From: Armatimonadota bacterium
GTDB lineage: Bacteria > Armatimonadota > Zipacnadia > Zipacnadales > UBA11051
Reading direction: 5' to 3'
Length of the DNA stretch: 64,000 nucleotides
NCBI GenBank assembly: GCA_013178155.1
Contig: JABLXH010000010.1
Location: 62,001-126,000 of the forward strand
Shown here: piece after piece, positions 5,915 through 62,060 of the stretch
How positions within the stretch are numbered: the first letter of the stretch is position 1
Layout of the letters: the number at the start of each line of letters is the position of its first letter
The notes under the pieces: generated by a model
The model's input: only the letters and a program-made list of their open reading frames with translations
Database searches by the model: none
What the model was told of the DNA's origin: nothing
Position numbers and translations under genes: made by a program

Positions 5915-6414
5915 CAGCATCGCCTCCCGGACAGCGCCTGAACGGCTCTCGGAACGGCGAGCAAGTTCGGCGCGAGGGCGGCGGGTCCCTGCGTCGGGTC
6001 TTGACGACCAACCAGTACCGCATGCAGTATGTGGTTGCCACCGTGCCTGTCGCGCAGGTGAGTAGGACCCAGTGGAGGCAAGAGGCTGTGTTGCGGAACC
6101 TGACACCTGTTCGCGCACAGAGTCCGGACGTGGTCCTGGACCACTCGGTGTCTGAGCCGGGTGGCGCGGCAGCGCGCGGCACCCCTGCAGATCGTGGGAG
6201 TAGCAGCCGACACGACCCACGAGCAGGATGGCTCCAGCAAGCCAGCGGCCTACCTGTGGGCTGTGGCGAGTGCCATGATGGCCAACCGGGTGGCGGCAAC
6301 CGAGGCGAGGCAGAGCGGCGGACGGGTGTTATCCACCGAGCAGGCCAAGGCGTTACAGGGCTGAGCCAACGTTGCTGGGATCTGGACTGCCCGTCTGCTG
6401 GCGGGCGTTACGCC
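5915..6414. other. Intergenic region between divergent symporter and ankyrin genes
   Basis: 500 bp without a convincing gene. Short open frames exist (for example 6161-6364) but have no ribosome-binding site and no recognisable protein character. The two flanking genes are divergent, so promoters must lie here. A weak TTGACG at 6001-6006 has no good -10 partner. I see no hairpin of note. Confidence 0.5.
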
Positions 6415-7212
6415 ATGGGCTCCAGAGGGCTGGTCTGCGCCCTACCGGTGCTGCTCACGCTGGCCGCAACTGCGGTTCTCGGCGGCTGCATGGTGGAGTT
6501 CGGGCGTACTCGGGTGCTCACACGCCAGCCAAACGCGGACTACCAACTTCCTCCCTTGCACCGAGCCGCTTTCTACGGCAAGACGCGAACGGTCCGGCAA
6601 CTGCTGGTACGCGGAGCCGCCGTGGACAGCAGGGATCAGGGCGGCAGGACGGCACTGCACTGGGCGGGGCGCCGAGAGGTGGCTGAGTTGCTGGTGGCCC
6701 AAGGCGGGGATATGAACGCCCGGGACTCCAACGGATGGACGCCGCTACACACCGCTGCGCTTCAGGGGACCAAGCACATGGTGCCGGCGCTCCTTGAACT
6801 GGGCGCCAACCCAATGGCCGAAGACAACTACGGCAACACTGCGCTGCACTGGGCGTCGACACCCGCGGCGGTCACGGCTCTGCTTGGCGGGGGCGCCAAC
6901 CTGGAGGCTACCGGCCAGCGGGGCGAGAAGCCACTGCACGTCGCTGCCAGTCAGGGCAACAAGGCTGTGGTCGAGGCGCTGCTGGCTGCCGGGGCCAACG
7001 TGAACGCCCGGAACAGCATCGGCTCTACACCCTTGCATCAGGCGGCGGGTTCACTCCGTCTGGATGTCGTGGAGCTGCTGCTGGCCCATGGCGCGGACAT
7101 CAACGCGCAGGACCAGAAAGGCCACACCCCGCTGTTCATTGCGCGAACCCAGGGCGTCACGGGGGTCAGCGACATGGTTACACTGCTGAGGCAGAACGGC
7201 GCGCGTGAGTAG
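6415..7212 (+). CDS. Ankyrin-repeat lipoprotein
   Basis: 265 residues. The start at 6415 gives a lipoprotein signal: hydrophobic LTLAATAVLGG followed by Cys25 (lipobox LGGC), so the mature protein is probably lipid-anchored outside the cytoplasmic membrane. The rest is about six to seven ankyrin repeats with the usual G-x-TPLHxAA and LLxxGAxxxAxDxxG spacing: for example NGWTPLHTAALQG, GEKPLHVAASQGN, IGSTPLHQAAG and KGHTPLFIARTQG. Ankyrin repeats bind proteins; the partner cannot be told from sequence. The frame is open upstream to 6001, but that part has no protein-like composition. Confidence 0.88.
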   Translation: MGSRGLVCALPVLLTLAATAVLGGCMVEFGRTRVLTRQPNADYQLPPLHRAAFYGKTRTVRQLLVRGAAVDSRDQGGRTALHWAGRREVAELLVAQGGDMNARDSNGWTPLHTAALQGTKHMVPALLELGANPMAEDNYGNTALHWASTPAAVTALLGGGANLEATGQRGEKPLHVAASQGNKAVVEALLAAGANVNARNSIGSTPLHQAAGSLRLDVVELLLAHGADINAQDQKGHTPLFIARTQGVTGVSDMVTLLRQNGARE

Positions 7213-7593: not shown

Positions 7594-8787
7594 TCAGGCC
7601 AAACCCCGGTCGAGGAGGTCCTGAACCTCGGCGCAGTCCTTGTCGCCGCGGCCCGAGACGTTGATGACCAGCAGGTCGTCGGCCGTAAACTCGGGGGCCA
7701 GGCGCAGGGCCAAGGCCACGGCGTGGGCGCTCTCCAGCGCCGGGATGATGCCCTCGGTCTGAGCCAGCACCTGGAAGGCGCGCACGGCCTCCACGTCGCT
7801 GACCGTCTCGTAGCGCGCGCGGCCCGTGTCCTTAAGCAGGCAGTGCTCGGGGCCGACGCCCGGATAGTCGAGGCCGGCAGCGATGGAGTGGGCGGGCAGG
7901 ACTTGGCCGTCCTCGTCCTGCAGGACGTATTGCGCCGCGCCGTGCAGCACGCCGTAGCTGCCCAGGCCCAGGGCCGCCGAGTGGTCGCCGGGGGTCAAGC
8001 CGCGCCCGCCCGCCTCGGCGCCGATGAGCTTTACCTCGGGGGTCTCGATGAAGTCCGCGAAGAGGCCCATGGCGTTGGAGCCGCCGCCAACGCAGGCCAT
8101 GAGGTGCGTCGGCAGGCGGCCCTCCTGGGCCAGGATCTGGGCCCGGACCTCGCGGCCGATGACCGACTGGAAGTCGCGCACCAGCGTCGGGAAGGGGTGT
8201 GGCCCGGCGACGGTGCCGAAGCAGTAGTAGGTGGTCTCCACGTTCTCCATCCAGTCACGGATGGCCTCATTGATGGCGTCCTTGAGCGTGCGGGTGCCGC
8301 TGGTGACCGGCCGCACCTCGGTGCCCAACAGCCGCATCCGAAAGACGTTCAGGGCCTGCCGCCGCACGTCCTCCTCGCCCATGTAGACCACGCACTCCAT
8401 GCCCAGCAGCGCGGCGACGGTGGCGGTGGCCACGCCATGCTGCCCGGCCCCGGTCTCGGCGATGATCCGCGGCTTGCCCATGCTCTGGGCCAGCAGGCCC
8501 TGGCCGAGAGTGTTGTTGATCTTGTGGGAACCGGTGTGGTTGAGGTCCTCGCGCTTGAGGAGCGTCTTGCAGCCGATGCGCTCGCTAAGCTGCGGGGCGT
8601 AATACAGCGGCGTGGGCCGCCCGCAGTAATCCCGCCACAGGCCTTCCAGCCGCCCACGGAAGGCGGGGTCGTCCTTGAGGCGCAGGTAGGCCGCCTCGAT
8701 CTCGGCCAGGGCAGTCAGCAGCACCTCAGGGACATACTGCCCGCCATAGCGTCCGAAGCGTCCGGGTTCGGTGGAGGTGGTGGTCAT
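7594..8787 (-). CDS. trpB: Tryptophan synthase beta chain
   Basis: 397 residues, the normal length for TrpB. It condenses indole with L-serine to form tryptophan in the cytoplasm. Visible hallmarks are [11 protein letters not shown] at the N-terminus, [15 protein letters not shown] with the PLP-binding lysine, the [12 protein letters not shown] substrate loop, and the phosphate-binding GGGSNAMG. This is the TrpB1 type that normally partners TrpA, but no trpA or other trp gene lies next to it in this window. A leader-peptide attenuator lies 230-280 bp upstream with a palindromic repeat in between, so expression is very probably controlled by charged tRNA-Trp. The gene converges on the pseudopilin remnant. 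Confidence 0.97.
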
Positions 8788-8816
8788 GATGAAAGGCCTT
8801 TCGTAGATTTCCCGTT

Positions 8817-8934
8817 ACCTCACCCCCGGCCCCTCTCCACAAAGTGGATGGGGAGGAACGGCCTGAGGCGCGGGCTCTGTCGTTTATGTCGTTACCCCCC
8901 TCTCCACTCGGTGGAGAGGGGCCGGGCGTGAGGT
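8817..8934. repeat. Palindromic repeat element, copy A (intergenic, between attenuator and trpB)
   Basis: 118 bp bounded by 24-bp terminal inverted repeats (8817-8840 and 8911-8934) that match at 23 of 24 positions, beginning ACCTCAC. Each end also folds on itself (CCCTCTCCAC...GTGGA-GGGG). Related copies are at 58019-58159 and 61310-61414. No transposase and no clear target-site duplication are seen, so this is a MITE-like or palindromic-unit element. Confidence 0.88.
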
Positions 8935-8942
8935 GACGTGAA

Positions 8943-8973
8943 AGCCGCAGGCCCCTTGCGGGTGCCTGCGGCT
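8943..8973 (-). terminator. Intrinsic terminator stem of the trp leader (3:4 hairpin)
   Basis: Perfect 10-bp arms, AGCCGCAGGC and GCCTGCGGCT, around an 11-nt loop, followed on the minus strand by UUUC. The stem is strong and very GC-rich but the U-tract is weak, and repeat copy A begins seven bases downstream. Confidence 0.7.
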
Positions 8974-9020
8974 CGGGTGTGCGGTCGGTCAGTTCGGTGA
9001 CAGCGATTCAGGCGCCCGCT
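8943..9020 (-). promoter_or_regulatory. trp attenuator: alternative antiterminator/terminator hairpins
   Basis: Read on the minus strand. Region 1 (9038-9031, GGCGCCGC, just after the Trp codons) can pair with region 2 (9019-9011, GCGGGCGCC) with one bulged base. Region 2 (9019-9009, GCGGGCGCCTG) can instead pair with region 3 (8968-8958, CAGGCACCCGC) at 10 of 11 positions. Region 3 also forms the 5' strand of a perfect 10-bp terminator stem, 8973-8964 with 8952-8943. These structures are mutually exclusive as in classical trp attenuation: ribosome stalling on Trp codons frees region 2 and blocks the terminator. The U-tract after the stem is short (three U). Confidence 0.85.
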
Positions 9021-9069
9021 AGGTAAGCGTGCGGCGCCACCACCAGAAGCCAAAGCGCTGGGCTGTCAT
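9019..9069 (-). CDS. trpL: trp operon leader peptide
   Basis: A 16-codon open frame reading MTAQRFGFWWWRRTLT then TAG. It contains three consecutive Trp codons at 9045-9037, positioned directly before region 1 of the attenuator and ending exactly at the first base of region 2. GAGG lies five bases before the ATG. The peptide itself needs no function: its translation senses tryptophanyl-tRNA supply. The order Phe-Trp-Trp-Trp-Arg-Arg, the stop-codon position and the alternative hairpins together make chance very unlikely. Confidence 0.9.
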   Translation of the reverse strand: MTAQRFGFWWWRRTLT

Positions 9070-9078
9070 CGTGGCCTC

Positions 9079-9107
9079 ATGTTAGCGCGGTTGGCGGGAG
9101 GAGTCAA
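9079..9107 (-). promoter_or_regulatory. Putative sigma70-type promoter for the trp leader
   Basis: On the minus strand TTGACT (9107-9102) and TAACAT (9084-9079) are separated by 17 bp. Transcription would start near 9073-9071, only two to four bases before the leader-peptide ATG, giving a nearly leaderless message that would exclude the GAGG. The promoter overlaps the stop codon of the upstream small gene. Confidence 0.55.
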
Positions 9108-9315
9108 GGGTAAGGCTGCCGCCTCCAGGCTGGTCGAGAATGAGGAAGACCGCAACCACTCCCGCCTCGGGGTCGACAATGAAACAGTCATTGCCACGGC
9201 CCCGGACCACCTGTAGTCCCCGGCCGGAGCCAGGGCTATCCACGACCAGTCGCACCTCATCGGCGCCGTTCCTGTTGCCGCCTGGATGCTGCCACACAAG
9301 ATGATGCTCTGCCAT
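9082..9315 (-). CDS. Small hypothetical protein
   Basis: 77 residues from ATG 9315 (an earlier in-frame ATG at 9387 is possible but its sequence is less protein-like). The text DEVRLVVDSPGSGRG, FIVDPEAGVVAVFLILDQP shows alternating hydrophobic beta-strand periodicity and looks coding, unlike the shadow frames. No signal peptide, no membrane helix and no family that I recognise. It lies between the regulator gene and the trp leader on the same strand, and its stop codon overlaps the trp leader promoter. Confidence 0.5.
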   Translation of the reverse strand: MAEHHLVWQHPGGNRNGADEVRLVVDSPGSGRGLQVVRGRGNDCFIVDPEAGVVAVFLILDQPGGGSLTLDSSRQPR

Positions 9316-56352: not shown

Positions 56353-58950
56353 CTACCCCTTCCTCCGCCCCAGGTCCGAGAGCTTGCGGCGCAAGGTTGT
56401 CGGGTCCGGGGGGCCGCTGTCGGGCGGGGGTTCGGGCTCGGGGGACGGGGGCACAGCGGCCTGCACGCGCCGCTCGCGTGGCTTCGGGACATACGGCTCC
56501 AGACCCAGCAGGTGATGGGTGATGATCAGCGCAGCTTCCTTGTCCGGGATGCGCCCGCGGGTGCCGCTGTCCAGATCGGTCTGAGCGAAGGCCGGCACCG
56601 CCGCCCCCACGCAGCTCGGGCAGCCGTCGGCGCATGGGCAGGTGCTGATGACCTGGTGCACCGCCTGCAGCAACTCCTCGGCAGCGTCCATACAGCGCAG
56701 GGCGTAGCCCATGCCGCCGGGCGTGCGATCATACAGGAACAGGGTGTCCGCGCCGAGGTTGCTGGCGTCCACCACCACGCCGATGTCCTGCACATCGCAC
56801 ATCACAAACATCGGCGCCACCTCCACCAGACAGTTCGCCACGCCGATGAGCCCCTCGGCCTGCACCAGGCCATGCTGCCGCACCGCCTCGCGGCAGGCGT
56901 CAGGTGGCACCAGCCAGAAAGCCATGGTCTCCAGCACCTGCGGCGGTAGCTCCAGCTTCTCAAACCCGAGGCTGTCGCGGGAGTGGTACTTCACCTTCTT
57001 GAACATGGGGATGGTGGTGGTGACCGTCACCTCGCCGAAGCCCAGATGGCAGCCGCGCCACTGGCGCTCCTCCTCGGTGTCCTCGATCTGCAGTCGCGAG
57101 CTGGTCACGGCCTGGGTGTAGTAGTCCAGTTCGCGCTTCTCCACATGCGCGATGGCGTTGTCAATGTCCAGGTTCAGGACGAGATAGCTCTCAGCGTCGT
57201 GGAGGTAGATGGCATGGGTATGAAGCTGCGACCAGGCGCTGATTTCGTCCATGGTGCCAATGACCTGGTGGCCCCGGCTGTCGTCCACGATGTTGTAGAC
57301 CGGGCCCCCGATGTTGCGCAGGTTGACCGTCGCCGCCGGGTACTCGGTGCTGGCCCAGTGCCAGCGCCCGGATAGGTGCTTCACCAGCTTCTGGTCCTCC
57401 AGGATCTCCAGCATGGTCTCGGCATACTCGCCAAAGAGACCGACCTCCTCATCAGCGATGGGCAGCTCGTAGGCCGCGCTCTTCAGGTGGCCAATGGTGA
57501 CGTGCGGGTTGTCGGGGTCAATGACCGCGTTCTCGGGCGACTGCTCGAAGAGGTACTCGCTGTGCTGGATGAGGTACTGGTCCAGCGGGGCGTTGTCGGC
57601 CACCAGAAAGATAAGGGCCTCCTCGGCCCCGCGTCCGGCGCGTCCGGCCTGCTGCCAGAGGCTGGCAATGCTGCCGGGGTAGCCCACCAGGATGGAAGCA
57701 TCGAGGCTGCCGATGTCAATGCCCAGCTCCAGCGCGTTGGTGCTGACCACGCCCAGGATCTCGCCCTCGGCCAGGCGGCGCTCGATCTCGCGGCGCTCCT
57801 CCGGCAGGTATCCGCCGCGGTAAGCCGCGATCTTGTCGGGCAGGCGCGGCGAAAGTCGCCCCAGGTACTCCTTGGCCCCGCGCGAGATCAGCTCCGCCGC
57901 CAGGCGTGTGCGCACGAAGGCGATGGTCTGGACCTCCTCACGCACCAGTTGGCAGAGCAGGTTCATGGCCTCGGTGAGGGGGGAGCGCCGTTCGCCGGAT
58001 GGGGCCTGGGCTGACGGCACCTCACCCTCCGGCCCCCTCTCCATGGAATGGAGAGGGGGAGTAGAGGCAGCGGCAGGGGCTGAGGCCGAGGCGGCTATCG
58101 TGTCATTCCGCCGTTTGTCCCCTCTCCACTCTGTGGAGAGGGGGGATGGGGGTGAGGCTACCGGCGGGTTCCACAGCACGAACCGTTTCGGCCCCCGCGG
58201 CGAGCCGTCATCGTTCACCAGCTCCATGCCCCGTCCGGTGATGCGTGCGGCGTGATCCACAGGGTTGTGGATGGTTGCAGAGCTGCACAGGAACAGCGGC
58301 GTCGCGCCATAGCGCTGGCAGATGCGATGGAGGCGGCGCATGACGTTCGCCAGGTGTGAGCCAAAGACGCCGCGATAGGCGTGTACCTCGTCAATGACGA
58401 CGTACTTCAGATGAGTGAAGAAGCGGTTCCAGCGCGAATGGTGAGGCAGGATCGCCTGGTGCAGCATGTCGGGGTTGGTGAGGACAATGTTGCCGCTGTC
58501 GCGTAGCCGCCGTCGTTCGCCTGGTGGGGTGTCGCCGTCGTAAGTCCCGGCCACGAAGGAAATGCCAAACCGCGCGTCGCCAAAGCGGCTCAGACCGCGA
58601 AGCTGGTCCTGGGCCAGCGCCTTCGTCGGGTAGATGAACAGCGCCGTGGCCAGCGGGTCGCGGAGCAACTCCTCCAGCACCGGCAGGTTGTAGCACAGCG
58701 TCTTGCCGCTGGCGGTGCCAGTGACGACTACCACATTGCGTCCCGCTCGCAAGTGTTCGATGGCCTCTACCTGATGGGTGTAGAGTCGGGTGATACCGCG
58801 GTCGGCCAGCGCCGCCTGCAGCGGGAGCGGCAGCGGTTCGCGCAGGTCGGCATATCGCGGCGGCCGGGCGGGTATCTCCACCACCTGGGCGATCTGCCCC
58901 TCGTAGTGACGAGCATGCTGGAGGGCTGACAGGAGGGCTCTGGCGTCCAT
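56353..58950 (-). CDS. MrfA-like DEAD/DEAH-box helicase with DUF1998 zinc domain (paralog 1)
   Basis: 865 residues. Superfamily 2 helicase: Q-motif-like YTHQVEAIEHL, Walker A TGTASGKT, PTKALAQDQL, IDEVHAYRG (DEVH), SSATI (motif III), and the second RecA lobe with STNALELGIDIGSLDA and QQAGRAGRGAE (motif VI). The C-terminus carries four Cys (CPCADGCPSC), the DUF1998/MrfA zinc site. In Bacillus subtilis MrfA repairs mitomycin C crosslinks. Residues about 264-311, between VLWNPPV and ERRSPLTEAM, are encoded by repeat copy B. A second paralog lies next to it at 59142-62060. Confidence 0.92.
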   Translation of the reverse strand: MDARALLSALQHARHYEGQIAQVVEIPARPPRYADLREPLPLPLQAALADRGITRLYTHQVEAIEHLRAGRNVVVVTGTASGKTLCYNLPVLEELLRDPLATALFIYPTKALAQDQLRGLSRFGDARFGISFVAGTYDGDTPPGERRRLRDSGNIVLTNPDMLHQAILPHHSRWNRFFTHLKYVVIDEVHAYRGVFGSHLANVMRRLHRICQRYGATPLFLCSSATIHNPVDHAARITGRGMELVNDDGSPRGPKRFVLWNPPVASPPSPLSTEWRGDKRRNDTIAASASAPAAASTPPLHSMERGPEGEVPSAQAPSGERRSPLTEAMNLLCQLVREEVQTIAFVRTRLAAELISRGAKEYLGRLSPRLPDKIAAYRGGYLPEERREIERRLAEGEILGVVSTNALELGIDIGSLDASILVGYPGSIASLWQQAGRAGRGAEEALIFLVADNAPLDQYLIQHSEYLFEQSPENAVIDPDNPHVTIGHLKSAAYELPIADEEVGLFGEYAETMLEILEDQKLVKHLSGRWHWASTEYPAATVNLRNIGGPVYNIVDDSRGHQVIGTMDEISAWSQLHTHAIYLHDAESYLVLNLDIDNAIAHVEKRELDYYTQAVTSSRLQIEDTEEERQWRGCHLGFGEVTVTTTIPMFKKVKYHSRDSLGFEKLELPPQVLETMAFWLVPPDACREAVRQHGLVQAEGLIGVANCLVEVAPMFVMCDVQDIGVVVDASNLGADTLFLYDRTPGGMGYALRCMDAAEELLQAVHQVISTCPCADGCPSCVGAAVPAFAQTDLDSGTRGRIPDKEAALIITHHLLGLEPYVPKPRERRVQAAVPPSPEPEPPPDSGPPDPTTLRRKLSDLGRRKG
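58019..58159. repeat. Palindromic repeat element, copy B (in frame inside helicase paralog 1)
   Basis: 141 bp with inverted termini (ACCTCACC... at 58019 and ...GGTGAGGCT at 58159) and terminal hairpins CCCTCTCCA/TGGAGAGGG and CCTCTCCACT/TGTGGAGAGG. It encodes a low-complexity, Ser/Pro/Ala-rich segment (ASPPSPLSTEWRGDK ... LHSMERGPEGEV). The reading phase differs from copy C. The adjacent helicase paralog lacks an insertion at the aligned position. Confidence 0.85.
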
Positions 58951-59141: not shown

Positions 59142-62060
59142 CTAGCGCTGGTTGTTGTCGGCTCGCTGGCGCTTTCGCCGCAGGGCCGCGCTGGCGACCG
59201 CGTCGCCGATGACGCGCGGGGACTGCTCCGGCGAGGGCGGTGGCTCCGGCGTGGGCGAGTCACTTTGCTCCTCCACGGAGGATGCACGATGCGATACGCG
59301 CGGCGCCTGTGGGGCCTTCTCCAGGCGACCCAGGCGCCGGGCCACCTCCAGCTCCGCCCCATCGCGGGCCTCGCGGGCAATGGCCTCCTCTCGTTGGCCC
59401 TCCTCCCAGGCGCGCTGGGCCTGTTCGGTCTCAAAGCGCTTGCGCAGCATCGCCCGCCGCGCCACATCGCTGTCGCTCAGTGTCTCGGCCGGCTCCGGTT
59501 GGGGGAAACCCTCGGGTGGCACGGGGGCGATGTCATGGAAGACCTGCGGGTACCGCTGTCGCTCCAGCCGCCGGCGGAGGCTGCGCTCCAGCCGCAGTCG
59601 AGCCTCGGCCTCGTCCTGGCCCAGACTGTCCTCGTCAGGCAGATGCAGACGGCTCTCGTCCGCCAGCAATAGCTCCAGGATCATGCGGGCCGCCTGTTTG
59701 CTGGGGATAGAGCCCTCGCCCCGCTCCACGTTCCACGTCGCCGCCTGACGAAGGGGCTTACCCACGCAGCACGGGCAACCGTCGCGACAGTCGCACTCGC
59801 GAATCCGGGTCAGCACCGCCGGCATGATCTCGCCGAGACGCTCATAGGCGCGTTCCGTGAAGCCAAGGCCCAGCGGGTGGCGCTCGTAGATGAAGGTGGC
59901 CTGCCAGGGCGAGTTCACGCAGCCGACGGTGTGGGAGAAATCCAGGGTCTCGCAGGTCACGAACAATGGCAGCAGCAGGCGAGTGCCATAACCGATCGCA
60001 CGCAGACCCGCGTAAGGGTCAAGTCCCGCCTGCACGACCTGGCGCAGCAGTCCATCCGGCGGGACCAGCCACAAGGCCATCGTCTCTAGCTGCAGCGTGG
60101 GTACCGGCGGGTTGACCGCTTCGAGGCTGAAACTCTCCAGGCGGTAGAAGTGGATGCGCTCAAACATGTGGGTGTTGAAGTAGGCCGTTACCTCCCCAAA
60201 ACACGCCTCGCCTGCACCGAAGGGCTTGCGTCTCAGCAGGCGGTCAATATGGTGGACATCCGTCCCACCCTGGGGCTGGGTGTAGTAGTCCACCTCCACC
60301 TGATGCACCACTGCCACACGCCGCTCCAGGTCCAGCAGGTCCACCAGGTACGTGTCCCCATAGTGCAGGTAGATGGCGCCCGGATGCAGCAGCGAGGGGG
60401 CATCGTAGATGTTGAGGTGCCCCAGCGTCCTTTGGCTGTCGCGATCCTGGATGATCAGTTCCGCCTCCGCGCCGCCACGCAGCGACATCTCGAACTGGGG
60501 CGTCTCTTTGGAGGCGTGGTACCAGCGTCCGGCGGTATAGCGCACCTTCCGCAGGTCCTGCAGGACCCGCAGCGCCTCCTCCGTGTGCGGGCCGAAGCTA
60601 TAGCTCTCCTCCTGCCTCACCGGCAGCTCATGGGCCGCGCAGCGTACATGCCCGGCGACGACATAGGGGTTGTCGCGGTCTACCACGGCTTCCTCGATGG
60701 GGCGCCCGAAGACATACTCCGGATGTTCCATGACATACTGGTTGACACTGGTGTCCAGGCCGACCAGCACCACCAGCGACTCCCGCTCGCGTCGCCCGGC
60801 CCGCCCGGCCTGCTGAAAGAAGGAGGCCAGGGTGCCAGGGTAGCCGACCACAATACTGGCATCCAGCCCCCCGACGTCAATGCCCAGTTCCAGCGCCCGG
60901 GTGCAGCTCACCCCCAGCAGCTCCCCCGTGAACAGCTTGCGCTCGATCTCGCGCCGCTCCTCAGGCAGATAGCCGCCCCGGTAGGGCATCACCTTGTGCA
61001 CCAGCTCCGGCGCTGTCGCCCGCAAGTTGTCACAGACATAGCGGTAGATAAGCTCAGCCGTGATCTTCGCCTTGGAGAAACAGATGGTCGGTACGCCCCG
61101 CCGCACCAGCTCGGCCATCAACTCATGGGCCTCGACATTGGCGCTGCGGCGGGAACGATAGCGCTTGCCATAGATGATCGGCGGGTTCCAGAAAACCCAG
61201 TGGCGGGGGCCCGCCGGACTGCCGTCATCATCCACCACCGTGACCTGGCGGTCGGTAAGCAGCGATGCCAGCTCGCCTGGGTTGGCGACGGTCGCGGAGC
61301 AGAAGATGAACCTCACCCCCGACCCCTCTCCACAGGGTGGAGGCGGGCGAAAGGCAAGGCCATCCTCGCTGTTACTCCCCTCTCCATTCCATGGAGAGGG
61401 GCCGGGGGTGAGGTGCCCGTAATGCCTCAGCAACCGGTCAAACCGCCGAAACAGGTTCGCCGTGTTGGAGCCAAAGAGCCCGCTGTAGGTGTGCACCTCG
61501 TCCACGATCACCAGCGCCAGCTTCTCCAGCAGGTCGGCCCAGCGGGTATGTTGGGGCATGAGCCCGGCATGCAGCATGTCGGGGTTGGTGAGGATGACCT
61601 GGCCCCGGTCGCGCAGTTTCCGGCGCATGGAGGCCGGCGTGTCGCCGTCGTAGCAGCCCACCAGCACATCCTCACGACCGGCCGGAGCCAGCAGCCGCTG
61701 GAGGGCCAGCATCTGATCCTGCGCCAGGGCCTTGGTCGGAAACAGCGCCAGTACCCGCGCCTGCGGGTCGCGTTCCAGCAACTCCAGGATCGCCAACTGG
61801 TAGACCAGCGACTTCCCGCTGGAGGTGCCCGTGGCCACCAGGGTGTCCTGCCCGGCGCGGATAGCCTGCAGCGCCTGGGCCTGGTGGCAGTAGAGCCGCT
61901 CGATACCCATGGCGGACAGCACCTGCTGAGCTGTCTCGCCGAGGGCCGGTGTGACCTCGCCATACCGCGCCGCCCGCGGTGGTTGGCAGTGCTGGTAGAC
62001 AATCTGCCCGCGGTAGCCGGGGTCCTGCTTCAGTTCTTCGAGGAAGGTAGCAAAGTCCAT
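59142..62060 (-). CDS. MrfA-like DEAD/DEAH-box helicase with DUF1998 zinc domain (paralog 2)
   Basis: 972 residues from ATG 62060 (an earlier ATG at 62090 is possible). Same order as paralog 1: YCHQAQALQAI, Walker A TGTSSGKS, PTKALAQDQM, VDEVHTYSG (DEVH), FCSATVANPG (motif III), CTRALELGIDVGGLD and QQAGRAGRRER (motif VI), then the four-Cys CDCRDGCPCC site. The ~110-residue charged C-terminal extension (RLRLERSLRRRLERQR ...) is absent from paralog 1. Residues about 216-250, just before motif III, are encoded by repeat copy C. Confidence 0.92.
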   Translation of the reverse strand: MDFATFLEELKQDPGYRGQIVYQHCQPPRAARYGEVTPALGETAQQVLSAMGIERLYCHQAQALQAIRAGQDTLVATGTSSGKSLVYQLAILELLERDPQARVLALFPTKALAQDQMLALQRLLAPAGREDVLVGCYDGDTPASMRRKLRDRGQVILTNPDMLHAGLMPQHTRWADLLEKLALVIVDEVHTYSGLFGSNTANLFRRFDRLLRHYGHLTPGPSPWNGEGSNSEDGLAFRPPPPCGEGSGVRFIFCSATVANPGELASLLTDRQVTVVDDDGSPAGPRHWVFWNPPIIYGKRYRSRRSANVEAHELMAELVRRGVPTICFSKAKITAELIYRYVCDNLRATAPELVHKVMPYRGGYLPEERREIERKLFTGELLGVSCTRALELGIDVGGLDASIVVGYPGTLASFFQQAGRAGRRERESLVVLVGLDTSVNQYVMEHPEYVFGRPIEEAVVDRDNPYVVAGHVRCAAHELPVRQEESYSFGPHTEEALRVLQDLRKVRYTAGRWYHASKETPQFEMSLRGGAEAELIIQDRDSQRTLGHLNIYDAPSLLHPGAIYLHYGDTYLVDLLDLERRVAVVHQVEVDYYTQPQGGTDVHHIDRLLRRKPFGAGEACFGEVTAYFNTHMFERIHFYRLESFSLEAVNPPVPTLQLETMALWLVPPDGLLRQVVQAGLDPYAGLRAIGYGTRLLLPLFVTCETLDFSHTVGCVNSPWQATFIYERHPLGLGFTERAYERLGEIMPAVLTRIRECDCRDGCPCCVGKPLRQAATWNVERGEGSIPSKQAARMILELLLADESRLHLPDEDSLGQDEAEARLRLERSLRRRLERQRYPQVFHDIAPVPPEGFPQPEPAETLSDSDVARRAMLRKRFETEQAQRAWEEGQREEAIAREARDGAELEVARRLGRLEKAPQAPRVSHRASSVEEQSDSPTPEPPPSPEQSPRVIGDAVASAALRRKRQRADNNQR
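61310..61414. repeat. Palindromic repeat element, copy C (in frame inside helicase paralog 2)
   Basis: 105 bp (exactly 35 codons) bounded by 24-bp inverted termini that match at 22 of 24 positions (ACCTCACCCCCG...). On the helicase strand it encodes HLTPGPSPWNGEG ... PPPPCGEGSGV and joins RLLRHYG to RFIFCSATV with the frame kept. The aligned site in paralog 1 (RICQRYGATPLFLCSSATI) has no insertion. Confidence 0.9.

Follow-up and report, generated by a model that had tools for sequence, protein, structure and literature searches.

A predicted tryptophan attenuator upstream of a stand-alone trpB gene

A classical ribosome-mediated, tryptophan-responsive transcription attenuator is predicted, with a probability of about 0.92, to control a stand-alone trpB gene in the 64-kb window (the whole stretch of 64,000 nucleotides that was analysed), where it would most likely turn on the tryptophan synthase gene when tryptophan is short. 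Support for the attenuator reading put forward in the original prediction comes from an orthologous leader in another genus, compensatory base changes, a conserved promoter and homologous leaders upstream of both trpS-trpEGD and trpE, and the anatomy, conservation, covariation and genomic distribution of the element can be read from the DNA itself. The trpB gene, coding for the tryptophan synthase beta subunit, stands alone at 7594-8787 on the minus strand (TIGR00263, 603 bits; cut-off 392) and is the next gene on the same strand downstream of the attenuator, with likely genes on the plus strand directly 3' of it. An ankyrin-repeat protein is also encoded near trpB (6001-7212, plus strand).

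The short leader ORF with its clustered Trp codons sits between the promoter and the first gene, trpB. It encodes MTAQRFGFWWWRRTLT (9069-9019, minus strand; ATG at 9069-9067 and TAG at 9021-9019), and its 16 codons and stop were read directly as ATG ACA GCC CAG CGC TTT GGC TTC TGG TGG TGG CGC CGC ACG CTT ACC TAG. The three adjacent Trp codons, TGG TGG TGG, likewise read directly, occupy 9045-9037 (minus strand) and are the presumed stall site of the ribosome. A 16-residue leader with three consecutive Trp codons had been claimed for this position, and its coordinates proved exact to the base when read on the minus strand. While short ORFs with the W-x0-2-W motif number 86 in the window, WWW occurs in only two of its short ORFs, and the trpB leader is the sole intergenic one of these that is followed by a strong hairpin.

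A sigma-70-type promoter, TTGACT-17-TAACAT (9107-9079, minus strand), is the only promoter-like site in the region 8780-9200 (0.0 expected, s.d. 0.2). The gap between the end of its -10 element and the ATG of the leader is 9 nt, which would place the transcription start a few nucleotides upstream of this codon. A start downstream of 9019, which would speak against attenuation, is not suggested, as the promoter lies upstream only, as far as the sequence can tell. A 101-codon ORF (9387-9082, minus strand), without a match in Pfam or NCBIfam, overlaps the leader promoter and stops 13 nt short of the ATG of the leader.

Predicted alternative pairings in the leader transcript

Region 1 of the attenuator (9026-9038, minus strand) is paired in the minimum-energy fold of 9100-8940, with GGCGCC (9038-9033) opposite 9016-9011 and CGCT (9029-9026) opposite 9020-9017, and the resulting 1:2 hairpin, a putative protector or pause structure, would overlap the Trp codons. 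Taken alone, this pairing is weak, the duplex of -21.9 kcal/mol being no better than chance (p = 0.14 against shuffles). The final G of the TAG (9019) is also the first base of region 2 (GCGGGCGCCTG; 9019-9009, minus strand), in line with the claim that the leader stop touches this region. In the antiterminator, 10 of the 11 positions of region 2 pair with bases 8968-8958 (CAGGCACCCGC) of region 3 (8958-8974, minus strand), the mismatch being C9014 with A8963. Region 3 also forms the terminator stem with region 4 (8943-8952, minus strand), the 3' arm of the hairpin, in which 8973-8964 and 8952-8943 make ten unbroken pairs, followed by an A bulge and CCC/GGG. The folding energy of this 3:4 terminator is -29.2 kcal/mol, and its U-tract, UUUC at 8943-8940, contains two Us that are possibly paired within the stem.

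As a whole, the 161-nt region 9100-8940 has a more stable fold than 199 of its 200 dinucleotide-shuffled versions (z = -3.29). When region 1 is withheld and arm 4 is left untranscribed, the minimum-energy structure is exactly the 2:3 pairing (-24.0 kcal/mol), and the 2:3 duplex is stronger than those formed with shuffled region 2 (p = 0.03). Of the mutually exclusive pairings that were originally proposed, 2:3 (10 of 11 bp) and 3:4 (perfect 10 bp) were reproduced, and 1:2 is present in the minimum-energy fold. No match above the curated cut-off was obtained with any of 4227 Rfam families, either in the window or at the loci of eight relatives, and the best sub-threshold matches resemble chance. 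A full-length match to BcKCsr2 (14.8 bits against a cut-off of 40) was taken as one of these chance matches because the consensus of this family lacks a run of Trp codons.

A course of events from transcription start and translation through stalling and termination to the tryptophan response may be deduced from this anatomy. RNA polymerase would begin a few nucleotides upstream of the leader, which a ribosome would then translate from its ATG. Where charged tRNA-Trp is scarce, the ribosome would stall on UGG-UGG-UGG and cover region 1, allowing regions 2 and 3 to pair, which would prevent the terminator and permit transcription of trpB. With ample tryptophan, the ribosome would instead continue to the leader stop, which borders region 2, and block the 2:3 pairing, the 3:4 hairpin would form, and transcription would stop before trpB.

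An orthologous trpB leader in a second genus

Seven genomes of the family were compared, among them the window's own genome (G000) and a member of another genus (G001), which is the only one besides G000 with a stand-alone trpB. The G001 trpB leader, MSSRFTFVWCWRWFA, occupies the same position as that of the window and keeps its Trp codons as W-C-W-R-W, while its promoter, TTGACA-17-TATGAT, has the same 9-nt gap to the ATG. Its region 2 (GCGGGCGCCTG) is identical to that of the window, as is CAGGCACCCG in region 3. The G001 terminator consists of GCCACAGGC/GCCTGTGGC, then GCTTTTGTTTG, and its stem shows a double change, G-C to A-U, relative to that in the window. Both the Trp codons and the alternative pairing that were sought in an orthologous leader are thus present in G001. 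Proteins of G001 carry the prepilin motif ILFPVFAKAREKAR, which would fit an affiliation with the Armatimonadota.

Searches for further trpB leaders yielded several candidates that were set aside. When 101 genomes were searched for the exact pattern GGGCGCCTG-N-CAGGCNCC, the examined matches other than the two trpB leaders looked like chance, and the best-looking of them, in G087, was rejected as it lacks a leader. W-rich ORFs before trpB in other genomes were rejected as artefacts, since most lie inside the upstream gene (mostly trpC) in another frame. The apparent in-frame TAG in the trpB of some relatives is merely the normal stop codon near the end of the gene.

A second predicted attenuator and the split trp regulon

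The trp genes are scattered in both G000 and G001, with trpS-trpE-trpG-trpD on one contig and trpC, trpA and trpF each located elsewhere. A second trp attenuator is found before trpS-trpE-trpG-trpD, one per genome (L180:803-1016 and L181:252-437). The trpS leaders of G000 and G001 encode MLVTQVVFSFWAWREFA and MTTQQAVYFFWAWPDLA (…FWAWREFA and …FFWAWPDLA), their promoters are consensus-like (TTGACA-17-TAACAT and TTGACA-17-TATTAT), the region-2 core GCGGGCGCC is situated just past the stop codon and the terminators end in a U run. The first nine bases of region 2 of the trpB leader are shared with both. The placement of trpS, coding for tryptophanyl-tRNA synthetase, at the head of an attenuated trp operon is unusual. 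No W-rich leader was found before trpC, trpA or trpF in either genome. The pattern TGGCN{9,23}GCGGGCGCC, used to search the family for extra leaders, gave counts close to those of the reversed control and recognised only the four known leaders. Two candidate leaders were also rejected, G000:C79 because it lies inside an open coding frame and G001:C73 because it lacks a W-rich leader.

The four leaders, those of trpB and trpS in G000 and G001, were aligned to assess covariation. All seven pairs of the 3:4 stem are kept in all four leaders (100% of cells paired, against 31-57% in slid controls), and four of the seven are changed on both sides, so that the double-sided stem changes looked for in related leaders do occur. 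Base 8967 in region 3 (alignment column 85) covaries with its partners in regions 2 and 4 alike, the base and its partners being A/U/U in the trpB leaders and G/C/C in the trpS leaders; such a double constraint is predicted by mutually exclusive pairing. A single pair of the 2:3 helix is changed on both sides among the four sequences, and the covariation evidence for the 2:3 and three-way pairing may be regarded as good but not large.

The attenuator was originally described as attached to a single trpB, not to a full operon. While trpB does stand alone, this description is incomplete, as a sister attenuator is present on trpS-trpE-trpG-trpD. As the same genome carries both, the trp genes form a split regulon, of which the lone trpB is one half, and the lineage appears to use classical attenuation widely. 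Two homologous attenuators would operate in this broken-up trp regulon, one on trpB and one on trpS-trpE-trpG-trpD. The trpB and trpS leaders are alike in their aromatic residues and W-x-W motif followed by GCGGGCGCC, unlike the GGCGAGCCGGC type of the sister genus (G002-G006), which suggests either a duplication within the lineage or common retention together with divergence of the sister genus. The trpB leader probably goes back to that of an ancestral trpEGDCB(A) operon, having been duplicated or retained at the split. Somewhat favoured is a scenario in which the break-up of this ancestral operon and the duplication of its attenuator produced a distributed regulon, where the entry step with trpS and the last step (the lone trpB) would each have their own Trp-codon leader and trpC, trpA and trpF would have none, peptide attenuation being ancestral and widespread in the group.

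Tryptophan-rich leaders upstream of trpE in related genomes

The sister genus (G002-G006), like most of the other relatives, has trpB closely behind another trp gene, mostly trpC, in a trpE-first operon. W-rich leaders are found before trpE in these relatives, with motifs including FWCWP, FWAWCWL, FWGWRWP, WFSWWYWFT, WAWRWRLRVA, WWWRWTP and SWWCWRKP, among others. Such leaders were detected as a short ORF with W-x-W accompanied by a terminator; a version of the detector that needed at least four Ts after the stem missed the window's own leader, and this requirement was relaxed. A W-rich leader with a terminator is present in 24 of 45 stretches upstream of trpE and in 43 of 1500 random segments, an enrichment of about 18-fold above background that is conservative because the random segments include some true leaders. 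A sigma-70-type promoter directly upstream is nearly universal among the leaders.

The antiterminator sequences differ by sub-group of relatives (GGCGAGCCGGC/GCCGGTTCGCC, TGAACTGACCC/GGGTCAGTTCA and CTGGTTC/GAACCAG), but within the family and several related ones the antiterminator always starts at the stop codon. The 2:3 duplex over 26 leaders has a combined p of 6e-10, which is overstated since the leaders are related. Individually, it is significant in 10 of the 26, many of those outside the family falling short, while all eight tested leaders of the family itself have p <= 0.05. The trpE leaders of family f5 (L168, L170, L171, L172, L177 and L167) keep the Trp codons and a strong GC hairpin, often with few or no Ts after it (for example GCCTGATCGG), suggesting U-tract-independent termination there. 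In family f3 (L166, L169, L173, L192 and L163), the Trp leader is situated about 440-690 nt upstream of trpE, with a long intervening stretch.

The terminator of the trpB leader and alternative readings

The U-tract of the window is only UUUC, compared with CUUUUGUUUG in G001, and termination may therefore be inefficient or factor-dependent; the attenuator hairpin is not among the terminators listed by a strict scan (at least five Ts in eight). A dispersed inverted-repeat element (8817-8935, arms of 49 nt with 84% complementarity) lies between the terminator and trpB, starting about 5 nt past the U-tract, and is absent at the G001 trpB leader. Relatives of this element occur in the window at 61310-61415 and about 58001-58160, and its core, CCTCACCCCCGGCCCCTCTCC, has 16 matches in the window's genome and 0-66 in family members, with none in G003. 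The element is MITE/REP-like, one of its copies abutting the attenuator U-tract. It is not part of the switch itself, but its insertion may have shortened the U-tract and weakened the terminator in this genome, and it could be home to other control.

The short U-tract, the proximity of the repeat and the failure of the strict scan to list the hairpin would all be expected under the main rival reading, that of a degenerate attenuator which lost most of its U-tract to the repeat element and through which trpB is now constitutively transcribed. However, nothing is missing from the promoter, the leader ORF with its Trp codons or the 2:3 and 3:4 pairings, all of which are similar in strength to those of the ortholog, and in the leaders of G015, G025 and G035 a strong hairpin is likewise followed by a poor U-tract, suggesting that a long U-tract may not be required. 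Such decay is considered unlikely. Action in trans, whether additional or the main function, is more doubtful still. The attenuated RNA or the Trp-rich peptide would regulate, for example, the unlinked trpC, trpA and trpF, in the manner of rnTrpL/peTrpL in Sinorhizobium meliloti. This would fit with the lack of leaders of their own at these three genes and with a -10 element located 9 nt from the ATG, which would render the leader RNA nearly leaderless, as in S. meliloti (PMC7298713), but the cis anatomy is sufficient alone. A chance association of an unrelated short ORF with an ordinary hairpin, such as a terminator of the 101-codon ORF, whose stop lies about 110 nt before the hairpin on the same strand, has a negligible probability and, short of experiment, appears already refuted by the ortholog, in which the promoter, the Trp codons and region 2 are conserved and the terminator covaries, and by the paralogous leader on trpS-trpEGD, besides the enrichment of similar leaders before trpE.

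Comparison with known attenuators

The Trp-responsive attenuation predicted for trpB is a textbook mechanism, the understanding of which is unchanged by this example. The bacterial group in which it occurs is, however, apparently undescribed for classical amino-acid attenuation. A survey in 2010 noted that leader-peptide systems were known only in Proteobacteria and Actinobacteria, and added the Firmicutes (PMC2965389). No paper on trp attenuation in Armatimonads was found in a literature search that mostly excluded subscription journals, and likewise Lopatovskaya et al. 2010 (cited in PMC4833913). The attenuator would thus extend classical amino-acid attenuation to a little-studied bacterial group. 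Two attenuators in one genome, set beside the leaders of intact operons in the sister genus, may allow the splitting of a regulon to be followed base by base.

Adjacent Trp codons in the leader peptide, a leader stop close to region 2 and a 2:3 pairing that excludes 3:4 are shared with trpL of E. coli and other enterobacteria (trpEDCBA), to which the putative 1:2 pairing and the predicted terminator ahead of the structural gene would also correspond. While the latter controls a whole operon, the attenuator in the window precedes a lone trpB, and its leader has three Trp codons rather than two. It further differs from E. coli trpL in its predicted transcription start a few nucleotides before the ATG, its weak U-tract and its lack of an Rfam match. 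Separate attenuators have been predicted on trpB1EDGC and trpB2A in Corynebacterium diphtheriae, and on trpS2 in Streptomyces avermitilis (PMC1262725), providing actinobacterial precedents for separate attenuators on individual trp units and for the attenuation of trpS. The lineage is, however, a different one as far as the trpB relatives show, trpS and trpEGD here share one attenuated operon, and trpB is fully alone, with trpA elsewhere and without a leader. Of the three trp operons of S. meliloti, trpE(G) alone is under attenuation, its leader ORF being leaderless (PMC7298713). Split trp genes, attenuation of some of the units and a nearly leaderless leader ORF are common to both, but in the window trpB also has its own attenuator. 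The particular feature here is that the operon is broken in the lineage and that related attenuators precede both its first unit, headed by trpS, and the lone trpB, which would clearly illustrate, in nature, how a regulatory RNA stays with its genes as their operon is dismantled.
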